A DNA stretch of 64,000 bases, taken from NCBI RefSeq assembly GCF_900112255.1, contig NZ_FOLE01000001.1, forward strand, positions 248,001 to 312,000, written 5' to 3'. The notes under the pieces were generated by a model, which was given only the letters and a program-made list of their open reading frames with translations, made no database searches and was not told where the DNA came from. This stretch comes from Flexibacter flexilis DSM 6793 (GTDB taxonomy: Bacteria; Bacteroidota; Bacteroidia; Cytophagales; Flexibacteraceae). Numbering within the stretch: the first letter of the stretch is position 1; every line of letters starts with the position of its first letter. The position numbers were made by a program, and so were the translations under genes. Shown piece by piece: positions 17,079-20,845 of the stretch.

Positions 17079-17352
17079 TATGTCTTTGCAAAGAATTGTT
17101 TTATCTGTTCCTGAAAGTTCTTCATTGTTATTGTATTATTTCTTAAAATGCCACCAACATCCGTACAAACGAACCCCGTGCCATTCCTCCGCAAAATCCT
17201 AAACAAATACAATATTTACAAATATTTTTATATTTTATTTATTAACAGTAAGAAAAAAAGGCGGACACCGCCAGCAAAAAAAGCATGGCTTTTCAAAAGG
17301 CTTTTTGCCTTGCGCCTTTCCGAATTGCGGAAGGTTGTGTAATTTTGGGGCA

Positions 17353-19098
17353 ATGGAAAAATTTATAGTATCGGCTCGTAAGTACCGCCCCGCCCAATTC
17401 GATTCGGTGGTCGGGCAATCGCACATCACCACCACCCTCAAAAACGCCATCGCCAACAACCATTTGGCACAAGCATTTTTGTTCTGTGGGCCTCGTGGTG
17501 TCGGCAAAACCACCTGTGCGCGTATTTTGGCCAAAACCATCAATTGCACCAACCTGACACCCGAACACGAAGCCTGCAACGAGTGTGAATCCTGTGTTAG
17601 TTTCAATAACAATGCATCTTTCAATACGCACGAGTTAGATGCCGCCTCCAACAACTCCGTGGACGACATCCGAAATTTGGTGGAACAAGTGCGCTACGCG
17701 CCACAATCGGGGCGTTACAAAGTCTATATCATCGACGAAGTGCACATGCTTTCCAACGCGGCTTTTAACGCTTTTCTCAAAACCTTAGAAGAGCCGCCCA
17801 GCTACGCCATTTTCATTTTGGCAACCACCGAAAAACATAAAATCATCCCGACGATTTTGTCGCGTTGCCAGATTTTTGACTTTAACCGCATTCATCTCAA
17901 CGACATTGCGGGACATTTGGCAGGCATTGCCCAAAAAGAACACATCATCGCAGAGCCTGAGGCCTTGCGCCTGATTGCCCAGAAAGCCGACGGCGGTTTG
18001 CGCGATGCCTTGTCGCTGTTCGACCTGATAAGCACGTTTGCCGCAGGACGTGGCATTACTTACGCCCAAACGATTGAGAATTTGCACATTCTCGACTACG
18101 ACTATTATTTCAAAATTACGGATAGTTTTTTGCAAGAAAATCTCCCGCAAAGTCTTTTGATTTTTGATGAAATTTTACGGAAAGGCTTTGACGGTCATAA
18201 CTTTATCGTGGGACTTTCCGAGCATTTGCGCAACCTGATGGTTTGTAAAGATGCGGCCACCGTCCGACTGCTGGAAGTGTCCGAAGACGTGCAACAACGC
18301 TATTTGCAACAAGCCCAAAATGCGTCGGTGTCGTTTTTGCTGACGGCCTTAAATGTGGTTTCGGGCTGCGATATGCAATACAAAAACAGCAAAAACCAAC
18401 GGCTTTTGGTGGAGTTGGCACTCATGAAAATTTGCTATTTGCAACGAGCCATAGACCTTGCACAAGCTCCAACGGAAACGGTTTCTTCCGAAGAAAAAAA
18501 AAAGCCTAATCCCCAACCCGTCGTAAGTGGCGGAGCTGTGCCCACGACTCCCAACATAGCTCCACCACCTGCACACCTCAAAACCGCAACGCGTATCCCG
18601 ACGGCAGCCGAGCTGGCCACCAAAGCAGCCCAAACGCAACCCGCTGCCGCAATGCCAACAGCCGTAACACAACCTACGGCTACGCCGCAACCCGCCACAA
18701 CGCCAGTGGTTGCGGCGGCTATCATCACCAACAACGATTTTAGTTTTGAGCAATTACAAACCGCGTGGCAGGCTTTCGCGGAAATATTGCGCAACAAGCA
18801 AGACTACGCCAATTTGGCCACAGTCAGCAACAAAGAATACAAATTACAAGGACAACAAATTGTTTTACAAGTATTTAACCCTTATGAGCAAAAGCAATTT
18901 GCAGACCTCAAGCCACAGCTATTGGGCTTTTTGCGCGAGCAATTGCACAATAATTTGATTGATGTCCTGACGGAAATCAAACCACCTTCGCAGGAGCAGT
19001 TGGTGGCACATTCGCCGCAAGACAAGTTTGCGCGATTGTTAGAAAAATATCCGTTGGTACAAGAACTGCGCGACCGTTTGAATTTGGATATTCAATAA
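17353..19098 (+). CDS. dnaX: DNA polymerase III subunits gamma and tau
   Basis: DnaX is the clamp-loader ATPase of the replisome. The chosen start, 17353, gives 581 residues for tau. Visible: Walker A GPRGVGKT (46 to 53), zinc module cysteines 65, 75, 78 and 81, the Walker B-type IIDEVHML (about 127 to 134), and the sensor 1 SRC (170 to 172). A Pro/Ala/Thr-rich linker (about 385 to 460) leads to the C-terminal tau domain. At codons 382 to 384 the run of ten A followed by G forms an A AAA AAG slippery site; a -1 shift gives Ala then stop, i.e. a gamma form of about 385 residues. The longer frame from the TTG at 17305 is not needed. Confidence 0.97.
   Translation: MEKFIVSARKYRPAQFDSVVGQSHITTTLKNAIANNHLAQAFLFCGPRGVGKTTCARILAKTINCTNLTPEHEACNECESCVSFNNNASFNTHELDAASNNSVDDIRNLVEQVRYAPQSGRYKVYIIDEVHMLSNAAFNAFLKTLEEPPSYAIFILATTEKHKIIPTILSRCQIFDFNRIHLNDIAGHLAGIAQKEHIIAEPEALRLIAQKADGGLRDALSLFDLISTFAAGRGITYAQTIENLHILDYDYYFKITDSFLQENLPQSLLIFDEILRKGFDGHNFIVGLSEHLRNLMVCKDAATVRLLEVSEDVQQRYLQQAQNASVSFLLTALNVVSGCDMQYKNSKNQRLLVELALMKICYLQRAIDLAQAPTETVSSEEKKKPNPQPVVSGGAVPTTPNIAPPPAHLKTATRIPTAAELATKAAQTQPAAAMPTAVTQPTATPQPATTPVVAAAIITNNDFSFEQLQTAWQAFAEILRNKQDYANLATVSNKEYKLQGQQIVLQVFNPYEQKQFADLKPQLLGFLREQLHNNLIDVLTEIKPPSQEQLVAHSPQDKFARLLEKYPLVQELRDRLNLDIQ
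18494..18509 (+). promoter_or_regulatory. Slippery A10-G site in dnaX, predicted frameshift to make gamma
   Basis: Ten A (18494-18503) then G create A AAA AAG in the reading frame, the same heptamer used in E. coli dnaX. After a -1 shift the next codons are GCC and TAA (18504-18509); after a +1 shift a stop comes at 18524-18526. A weak GTCGT/ACGAC stem lies 16 bases downstream, and no Shine-Dalgarno-like stimulator is seen upstream, so RNA polymerase slippage is as likely as ribosomal slippage. Confidence 0.65.
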
Positions 19099-19117
19099 AA
19101 AACTTGACCGAACACAA

Positions 19118-19246
19118 ACAAAAAAGGCTGCCAAACGGTAGCCTTTTTTGCGTCATTCATTTTTATTTAAACCTAAACCTTTAGCGAAAAAACATATCGC
19201 TCTACTCTCTAAAACTCTTCTTTACGGCAATATTCCGTCCAGAACT
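19118..19246 (-). ncRNA. Candidate small RNA, copy 1 of a tandem triplicate (also dnaX terminator)
   Basis: The repeat unit covers 19114-19257. Read on the minus strand it starts after a perfect TAnnTTTG box (TATCTTTG, 19258 to 19251), then has a short stem ACGG/CCGT, a stem AGCGA/TCGCT and ends in a hairpin with arms of 13 bases (19120-19132 and 19137-19149) followed by a T-rich run. It is 143 of 144 bases identical to copy 2. On the plus strand the same hairpin can end dnaX. In minus-strand RNA one position of the stem is an A-C mismatch (G-U in plus-strand RNA), which is the main point against the proposed direction. Confidence 0.5.
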
Positions 19247-19310
19247 AATGCAAAGATAAGAACAGACTTCAACTCCGCATCTTTTTTTATGCGAAAAGCT
19301 AATTTTCCTC

Positions 19311-19340
19311 GACGAATGATTCATTTTCCTCGATGAATGG
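19311..19340 (-). promoter_or_regulatory. Paired 9-base direct repeats upstream of copy 1
   Basis: On the plus strand GACGAATGA (19311) and GATGAATGG (19332) start 21 bases apart, i.e. two helical turns. On the minus strand they read TCATTCGTC and CCATTCATC and lie 53 bases upstream of the TATCTTTG box. Paired 9-base sites at this spacing are typical of LytTR-type regulators; no such regulator gene is in the window. Confidence 0.45.
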
Positions 19341-19416
19341 ATTTATTTTTTCGACAAACACAATAGATAGTTCGAGTAAATCCACTACCCTATCGCCTTT
19401 TTTTGAGTTTATACAA

Positions 19417-19545
19417 ACAAAAAAGGCTGCCAAACGGTAGCCTTTTTTGCGTCATTCATTTTTATTTAAACCTAAACCTTTAGCGAAAAAACATATCGCT
19501 CTACTCTCTAAAACTCTTCTTTACGGTAATATTCCGTCCAGAACT
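19417..19545 (-). ncRNA. Candidate small RNA, copy 2
   Basis: The repeat unit covers 19413-19556, exactly 299 bases after copy 1, with a single C-to-T change. The -7-like box on the minus strand is CATCTTTG (19557 to 19550). The terminal hairpin (19419-19431 and 19436-19448) and its T-run are unchanged. It has no plus-strand gene to terminate, which argues that the element is more than the dnaX terminator. Confidence 0.5.
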
Positions 19546-19609
19546 AATGCAAAGATGTATAATTTCTAGTTAACAATTGCCTTTTTTTTACAAAACATAA
19601 CTTTTAATT

Positions 19610-19639
19610 GATGAATGGTATATTTCAGTTGATGAATGG
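19610..19639 (-). promoter_or_regulatory. Paired 9-base direct repeats upstream of copy 2
   Basis: GATGAATGG occurs at 19610-19618 and 19631-19639, again 21 bases apart and again 53 bases from the -7-like box of the adjacent copy. The sequence between box and repeats differs from that of copy 1 except for a T-tract at the same place, so spacing is conserved while filler is not. Confidence 0.45.
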
Positions 19640-19690
19640 TAAGTCAAAACAATATAAAACCCGAATTTCATTGACCTTTCCAACCAAAAA

Positions 19691-19818
19691 TACAATTGGC
19701 TACCAGTTGGTAGCCAATTGTACGTCATTCATTTTTCATTTTAAACCTAAACCTTTAGCGAAAAACACATCGCTCTACTCTCTAAAACTCTTCTTTACGG
19801 CAAACCCCGTCCAGAACT
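19691..19818 (-). ncRNA. Candidate small RNA, copy 3 (diverged)
   Basis: The unit covers 19692-19830. The 3' hairpin is ACAATTGGCTACC, loop AGTT, GGTAGCCAATTGT: the lower stem differs from copies 1 and 2 (AAAAAA/TTTTTT) but both arms have changed together so pairing is kept, and the mismatch is repaired. The AGCGA/TCGCT and ACGG/CCGT stems remain. The -7-like box is TACCTTTA (19830 to 19823). On the minus strand a run of five T follows the hairpin. The paired direct repeats are not found upstream of this copy. Confidence 0.45.
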
Positions 19819-19915
19819 GAAGTAAAGGTAATATGCTACTCATTAGGAGAACATTCTTTTATACCAAAATCTACAAAGGCTCGGTAAAACCACGGTTTTA
19901 CTCGGCGAATTACTT

Positions 19916-20845
19916 TTATTCTGCCAATAATCTTGTTCCGTCTTTGTCCACGGTGGTTACGATGGCATTGGCCGCTACGCCTGCGGACTCAAACGCTCCC
20001 ACAATGGCTTTTTGAATCTGCTCGGCCTTCTCCAATGATTCGGTAATCGCGAACACGGCAGGCCCCGAACCCGAAATAGTCATGCCGTCTGCGCCAGCCT
20101 CCAAAGCAGCTTTTTTGGCAGCGTCAAAACCTTTGATAAGTTTGGCGCGAACAGGCTCTACTACCACATCGTTGAGGCTACGCGCAAACAGCGAATAATC
20201 GTTGCGCGCGAAAGCCACCGTAATCAAAGCGGTATTGGCCATATTGGCTACAAAATCAGCCATTGGAATCATTTTGGGCAATACGTCGCGGGCGTCTTTG
20301 GTCAGGACGGTAAGTTCTGGCTTTACCAACACCACGTACAAATTGTCGATGTGCCCGATGGCCGTAACGTCCAGCGGCACGCACGAACGCGTAAGCGTAG
20401 CCCCTCCCAACAAGCAAGGCGAAGTGTTATCCGCAAAAAAGCTACCCGAAACCACTTCTTCGGCTTTGGTGGCCGCCAAAATCAAATCATCTTTGGAAAG
20501 TTTGCTTCCGTACAAATAATTGGTAGCAAAAGCCGCCGCACAAGCCGAAGCCGCACTCGAACCCAAGCCCGACCCCGCTGGAATGCCTTTTTGCAAGCGA
20601 AGTTCCACGCCTCCACGCTCGCCAAGCATCTCCAACACGGCGGCGGCGGCAATGCCTGCCGTATTTTTCAAAGGCTCAGTAGGCAACGAATAATTGTTGT
20701 CGCCCATGCTCAAAAAAACACCTGCTTGCGTGGTCGCACGCGCATAAAGTGTGTCGCCCCAACCGCGAACAGCCATTCCCAAAACATCAAAACCCGGCCC
20801 AATGTTACCGATGGTTGCAGGCGCAAATACTTTAATCCAATACAT
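19916..20845 (-). CDS. thrB: Homoserine kinase
   Basis: ThrB phosphorylates homoserine with ATP on the way to threonine. The 309-residue protein is a GHMP kinase: FAPATIGNIGPGFDVLGMAV at the N-terminus, the ATP loop GIPAGSGLGSSAASACAAA at about residues 86 to 104, and the C-terminal TISGSGPAVFAI motif near 257. The length fits the family. Neither thrA nor thrC is next to it. A palindrome GTAAAACC-AC-GGTTTTAC (19884-19901) just downstream might end its transcript, but it lacks a T-run. Confidence 0.95.
   Translation of the reverse strand: MYWIKVFAPATIGNIGPGFDVLGMAVRGWGDTLYARATTQAGVFLSMGDNNYSLPTEPLKNTAGIAAAAVLEMLGERGGVELRLQKGIPAGSGLGSSAASACAAAFATNYLYGSKLSKDDLILAATKAEEVVSGSFFADNTSPCLLGGATLTRSCVPLDVTAIGHIDNLYVVLVKPELTVLTKDARDVLPKMIPMADFVANMANTALITVAFARNDYSLFARSLNDVVVEPVRAKLIKGFDAAKKAALEAGADGMTISGSGPAVFAITESLEKAEQIQKAIVGAFESAGVAANAIVTTVDKDGTRLLAE

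Follow-up and report, generated by a model that had tools for sequence, protein, structure and literature searches.

The Qrr, LhrC, and Cia-dependent small RNAs (sRNAs) form sets of several near-identical RNAs, some of them in tandem, that answer to one regulator and carry fixed unpaired seeds; Hfq is the partner of Qrr. To our knowledge, few sRNA families have been described in Bacteroidota outside Bacteroides, where FopS is the best-studied multi-copy family. According to the portions of the reports drawn on here, the FopS family of Bacteroides thetaiotaomicron comprises 14 members that are AT-rich and mostly intergenic, with canonical promoters and a terminator hairpin (PMC11697453, PMC7366714). 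They pair with mRNA start regions, such as those of susC-like mRNAs, through a seed that is common to the members and lies near the 5′ end, and they act together with the RRM protein RbpB (PMC11697453). That account also names Qrr (Vibrio), LhrC (Listeria), and the Cia-dependent sRNAs (Streptococcus) as sibling sRNAs (PMC11697453). In the part of the work on Flavobacterium psychrophilum drawn on here, Rfp18 is described as a structured independent sRNA with predicted mRNA targets (PMC9723704).

Here we describe a set of seven homologous units in one genome, three of which lie in a single 64-kb stretch of DNA (the window). A multi-copy regulatory RNA had been proposed for the three units in the initial annotation, and this is the best-supported reading, given seven copies, paired stems, fixed linkers, an operator in the same phase in 5/7 copies, and mostly no gene close downstream. 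We consider it probable, as our best reading, that the units are sibling sRNAs that act in trans under a common activator and make up a new, lineage-specific family of seven members. The likeness to the Qrr, LhrC, and Cia-dependent sRNAs would lie in near-identical sibling RNAs, some in tandem, with one regulator and fixed seeds, both of which are putative in the present set. The difference is that no sequence relation appears at Rfam gathering scores, and that Qrr works with Hfq, which was not found in this genome. Neither Hfq (PF17209) nor RRM_1 (PF00076) gave a match here; control searches were positive in 5/14 and 2/14 genomes, respectively, the latter including Bacteroides ihuae. Like FopS and GibS, as far as the consulted portions describe them, the units appear to be multi-copy, AT-rich, mostly intergenic Bacteroidota sRNAs with a promoter, a terminator, and a common seed. 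Unlike FopS, they score 26.8 bits at best with its model (RF04319; gathering score 56), they occur in a genome with no RRM_1 match, whereas FopS works with an RRM partner, and their invariant linkers lie at RNA bases 37-51 and 67-94 rather than near the 5′ end; a phased operator such as the one found here is not described for FopS in those portions (PMC11697453, PMC7366714). Rfp18 is comparable in that it is structured, independent, and found in a member of Bacteroidota from outside the gut, although the likeness is by description only and the portion consulted does not mention several copies (PMC9723704). A seven-copy family with an operator that is largely limited to its own promoters, and with no detected Hfq or RRM protein, would be a compact system in which to test partner-free sRNA action, and would also help to test why bacteria retain sibling sRNAs.

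Tandem units between dnaX and thrB and their paralogues

Three units lie in tandem, in minus orientation, between dnaX (17305-19098, plus strand; matches DNA polymerase III families in Pfam) and thrB (19916-20845, minus strand; GHMP kinase domains in Pfam, gene name from the initial annotation). These had been recognized as three minus-strand repeat units, which we confirmed at 19114-19250, 19413-19549, and 19685-19822 and found to belong to a larger family (n = 7 in the genome). Copies 1 and 2 are 99% identical across 144 nt (19114-19257 versus 19413-19556), and copy 3 can be aligned to them in blocks of 82% (71 nt), 74% (57 nt), and 84% (25 nt) identity. The features, in window coordinates unless a contig is given, are as follows.

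19114-19250, minus strand: copy 1, predicted sRNA transcript with terminator, ends approximate
19251-19258, minus strand: copy 1 -7 box, TATCTTTG, strict TAnnTTTG
19308-19358, minus strand: copy 1 operator, three repeats 21 bp apart (19308-19316, 19329-19337, 19350-19358)
19203-19213, minus strand: copy 1 linker A, TTTAGAGAGTA, the same in 7/7 copies
19168-19182, minus strand: copy 1 linker B, AAAGGTTTAGGTTTA, the same in 7/7 copies, presumed seed
19119-19150, minus strand: copy 1 terminator hairpin
19413-19549, minus strand: copy 2, predicted sRNA
19550-19557, minus strand: copy 2 -7 box, CATCTTTG, one base off
19607-19636, minus strand: copy 2 operator, two weaker repeats (7/9 each) at the offsets seen in other copies
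19502-19512, minus strand: copy 2 linker A
19467-19481, minus strand: copy 2 linker B
19418-19449, minus strand: copy 2 terminator hairpin
19685-19822, minus strand: copy 3, predicted sRNA
19823-19830, minus strand: copy 3 -7 box, TACCTTTA, one base off
19880-19909, minus strand: copy 3 operator, two repeats (9/9 each), between copy 3 and thrB
19776-19786, minus strand: copy 3 linker A
19742-19756, minus strand: copy 3 linker B
19691-19722, minus strand: copy 3 terminator hairpin, sequence unlike copies 1 and 2, 15-bp perfect stem
C4:29721-29856 and C4:29465-29598, both minus strand: copies C4a and C4b, downstream of dnaB, found with the full-length model
C2:410480-410625 and C2:376216-376364, both plus strand: copies C2a and C2b, found with the full-length model

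We searched the genome (48 contigs totaling 4,249,974 bases; completeness, 99.84%) with a full-length covariance model and recovered seven copies, the three in the window and C4a, C4b, C2a, and C2b, spread across three contigs. An exact core pattern (backward control, 0) and a core covariance model (R2) each returned the identical seven. Because four further copies lie elsewhere in the genome, the tandem units are not a product of chance. With 7/7 copies returned by all three methods, the genome appears to hold several homologous transcription units, as in the sibling or multi-copy class of sRNAs. Comparison at the DNA level likewise supports seven copies. The earlier claim that the units share no coding frame nearly stood, the exception being the plus-strand frames of copies 1 and 3, which share KPKPLAK and then diverge.

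The units could instead be cis-acting elements, terminators or leaders for neighboring genes rather than free RNAs, a reading that we regard as very unlikely. In its favor, the hairpin of copy 1 follows directly after dnaX, 20 nt past the stop codon, with a T-run on either strand, and for these reasons it may also terminate dnaX; in addition, C2a has a same-strand gene ∼300 nt downstream. However, once frames that lie antisense within a longer gene are set aside, the first 290 nt after each copy contain no start of a same-strand frame of at least 90 aa, which favors free RNAs over leaders. After the gene behind C2a, the next nearest same-strand gene lies ∼660 nt after C4b, and what follows the remaining copies is a further copy or a converging gene; C2b, for one, sits between converging genes that are gltD- and nadC-like by eye. 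Only another copy lies ahead of copy 2, copy 3, and C4a, and the list of open reading frames bears out the observation, made at the outset, that there is no protein gene for copies 2 and 3 to terminate. Finally, stems, linkers, and operator would be superfluous for a terminator alone.

A comparison with Rfam, Flavo-1 included, and a covariance search across the order had both been suggested in the initial annotation. No Rfam 15 family, including Flavo-1 and 6S, reached its gathering score, either in the window or in L009, L010, and L011, the loci of the four remaining copies. A permissive scan gave 46 weak matches, which we put down to chance, among them FopS (26.8 bits for copy 3 and 17.5 bits for copies 1 and 2), RsaE (24.8 bits on the plus strand; gathering score 79), BTnc231 (22.5 bits versus 80.4), and AbsR25 (22.3 bits versus 47). 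The family appears to stand outside FopS and any other Rfam family at threshold. With the full-length model (R1), weak matches appeared in 1/10 other genomes of the taxonomic family and, under stricter filters, in 6/290 other genomes of the order, where ∼3 would be expected at E 0.01. We rejected these seven weak loci as relatives: GAGAGTA occurs in 0/7 and GGTTTAG in one (L111), and what they have in common is a terminator-like hairpin. Model R2 matched 0/38 other related genomes at E 0.1, and the exact core was found in 0/389 other genomes of the order. The covariance search across the order thus yielded no credible relative, and conservation is seen only among the paralogues of one genome; as this genome is the sole representative of its genus in the set compared, the family may be genus-wide. 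A narrow search of the open-access literature found no publication on an sRNA of Cytophagales.

Predicted promoters and a phased upstream operator

A TAnnTTTG-like box had been assigned to every copy in the window; we find it strict in copy 1 only, with copies 2 and 3 one base off. Across the family the -7 box is strict in 5/7 copies (copy 1, C4a, C4b, C2a, and C2b), and these boxes appear Bacteroidota-like. At the other end of the unit a hairpin with a T-run is present in 7/7 copies, and each copy appears to have its own promoter and intrinsic terminator. Each unit is likely to be transcribed independently. A consensus TTG at -33 is plain by eye at the usual distance only for C4a, a pattern that would fit activator-dependent promoters.

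Upstream of the -7 box, TTYRYCGAG-like repeats lie at exactly 58 and 79 nt in 5/7 copies (copies 1, 2, and 3, C4a, and C2b). The two repeats score 9/9 and 9/9 in four of these five copies and 7/9 and 7/9 in copy 2, and copy 1 has an extra repeat at 100 nt (8/9). C4b reaches at most 6/9 (at 79 nt) and C2a 6/9 at 58 nt, with no array at the expected places. We counted such pairs in a sample made up of the window and 20 stretches of 20 kb (464 kb; 926,740 positions, both strands): 21-bp pairs scoring 17 or 18 of 18 occurred three times, all before copies 1 and 3, and at a low threshold (7/9 twice) there were 77 pairs, so the array of copy 2 is convincing by position alone. Genome-wide, a longer operator pair with at most one mismatch occurs at seven places, four of them sRNA promoters and three elsewhere (control, 1). 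A single operator site with at most one mismatch occurs at 107 places versus 86 for the backward control, and is therefore not specific; 26 single-site loci outside the sRNA promoters had no partner scoring at least 9/12 at 21 or 42 bp, the best (L149) reaching 8.

LytTR-type operators consist of direct repeats ∼21 bp apart above a promoter. The array described here is like them in its 21-bp head-to-tail spacing (58 and 79 nt, in 5/7 copies), and unlike them in that the repeat sequence does not resemble the LytTR consensus. We propose that a single activator, which would occupy the repeats in a head-to-tail arrangement and be LytTR-like by this spacing, likely turns on most copies together.

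Two loci outside the family carry related sites. L149 (C3:306203, plus strand) is an intergenic perfect repeat, followed at a distance of 21 bp by a partial one (8/12); a TAnnTTTG box, looked for within 140 nt, was absent. At L120 (C11:60057-60086, minus strand), a TACCTTTG box has a one-mismatch operator pair upstream of it, at 58 and 37 nt, on the same grid as in the sRNA promoters, and an ATG lies 58 nt after the start of that box. This is possibly a co-regulated gene, or chance.

Predicted RNA anatomy and divergence of the copies

Read in the direction of the RNA, each unit runs from the -7 box through stem 1, linker A, stem 2, linker B, and a short tail to the terminator hairpin, and the two stems and terminator-like hairpin with T-run reported earlier for the window were seen in every copy. 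The linkers are invariant in 7/7 copies (UUUAGAGAGUA between stems 1 and 2, AAAGGUUUAGGUUUA after stem 2). The sequence of the terminator differs in copy 3 and in both C2 copies, with a strong hairpin retained. The string GTTTTAGAG resembles a Cas9 crRNA repeat, a likeness that we took to be chance.

Measured against dinucleotide shuffles, the minus-strand folds of copies 1, 2, and 3 have z scores of -3.65, -3.08, and -4.68, with 0, 2, and 0 of 200 shuffles folding as well. The plus strand folds even lower in the two copies for which it was folded (z -5.45 for copy 1 and -6.54 for copy 3), so the strand is decided by the -7 box and operator and not by folding alone. Random drift in the stems had been named at the outset as a pattern that would speak against a small RNA family. 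With arms chosen by hand, and among the seven paralogues only, we found instead that stem 1 is paired in 56/56 cells, with two-sided changes at 5/8 pairs, and stem 2 in 35/35 cells, with two-sided changes at 4/5 pairs. Every two-sided change stems from the diverged copies C2a and C2b, and the covariation therefore amounts to few events. On a MAFFT alignment with gaps badly placed in stem 2, the covariation term of RNAalifold was unfavorable (+1.11), and the program returned a different, longer stem 2 that pairs parts of both linkers; single folds of copies 1 and 2 likewise pair parts of the linkers with each other. Because both approaches pair the linkers together, an unpaired state of the linkers is something that we infer.

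To place the limits of the conserved unit, we compared identity inside and outside the transcript. Between copies 1 and 2, identity is 0.99 and 1.00 in the two parts of the transcript but falls to 0.55 above it and to 0.45 below it, near the background of 0.49 (sd 0.03) given by shuffled upstream sequences. Copy 1 and C4a, on different contigs, are 0.98 and 1.00 identical in the transcript, 0.69 above, and 0.45 below, and some upstream likeness remains. The transcript is thus the unit that is kept alike. This identity pattern would result from gene conversion, or from selection acting strongly on the entire RNA; the terminator, too, is identical, and for that reason we favor conversion. Judging only by this pattern, multiple copies may supply dose, and conversion may keep their RNA parts uniform as the promoters drift apart.

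Loss of identity at the transcript edges of copy 1, copy 2, and C4a, together with dispersal over three contigs, would also suit a MITE-like element, a short mobile or repeated sequence that folds like an RNA but has no host function. We regard this as highly improbable, since the diverged copies combine two-sided stem changes with fixed linkers and the operator phase is preserved outside the copied unit. In addition, the exact core was found in 0 viral contigs, and 9 phage and 3 plasmid records gave fragments only, none covering 80% of the query.

Candidate targets and a prophage lead

As a default mechanism for sibling sRNAs of this kind, the invariant linkers, chiefly the second, would block translation by pairing with target mRNAs at their start regions, with no Hfq or RRM protein. 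We adopt this default because FopS pairs with mRNA start regions, according to the portion of its description drawn on here (PMC11697453). Across 364 start regions of mixed genes, we found no enrichment of complementarity for either linker: for linker B, 11/60 shuffled seeds did as well on the mean and 4/60 on the top ten, and for linker A, 16/60 and 46/60. This lack of enrichment, together with two invariant motifs and many copies, would also fit an RNA that binds protein rather than mRNA, the seven copies titrating an RNA-binding regulator as a CsrB-type sponge. We think this unlikely, as CsrB-type sponges carry many motif repeats, whereas each motif here occurs once per copy, and Hfq and RRM_1, the sole candidate proteins searched, had no match.

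Returning to pairing with mRNA, we located complements of linker B with at most two mismatches outside the family at 10 places, versus 72 for the backward control. Such sites are thus not commoner than chance, and only the position and strength of some are notable: 3/10 are in the sense orientation and a short distance ahead of an ATG. At C13:3379, 14 bases are paired with linker B (score 32), ending 11 nt before the ATG of a 66-aa frame, and at C19:4203, 13 bases are paired (score 30), ending 12 nt before the ATG of a 69-aa frame. The third site (L142, C8:203572-203587, plus strand) is weaker (score 25.5), ends 27 nt before its ATG, and follows a gene with a weak match (9.8e-06) to a virion structural family. 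Using 400 shuffled seeds, and scaling from the 364 start regions to an assumed 3,700 genes, we expect 0.05 and 0.18 sites at scores of 32 and 30 and ∼2 at 26 or more, which places the L142 site within chance.

The two stronger sites lie in related prophage-like cassettes on C13 (L175, 914-4456) and C19 (L176, 1753-5304), each with a portal-like gene, the small gene, which would encode a membrane protein, and a CHAP endolysin-like gene; a DUF6712 gene is present in the C13 cassette, the one tested for it. Neither the 66-aa nor the 69-aa protein matches a Pfam or PHROG family. Both have two hydrophobic stretches by eye, and from its place and size we guess that the small gene is a holin. The two cassettes have a common leader, in which TAAACCTAAACC is complementary to linker B, and this leader is the same while the small proteins differ. 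It may equally be a phage translation signal, because a similar CTAAACCCTT also precedes the start of the next gene. Since their relatedness reduces the two cassettes to a single event, and since two linkers were tried, a fair chance figure is ∼0.1 to 0.3. We treat the complementarity in C13 and C19 as the best target lead and not as a result. It would be compatible with a more specific role, which we put forward as a doubtful proposal, in which the seven-copy host sRNAs, under their own activator, restrain resident prophages, with linker B pairing over 14 and 13 bases with the start regions of small membrane-protein, possibly holin, genes that precede an endolysin gene, and perhaps at a third phage-like locus, without Hfq or an RRM protein. 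Beside the C13 cassette (L175, 7370-11480) lie overlapping genes of 299 and 1073 aa, the larger of which is ATPase-like by eye.
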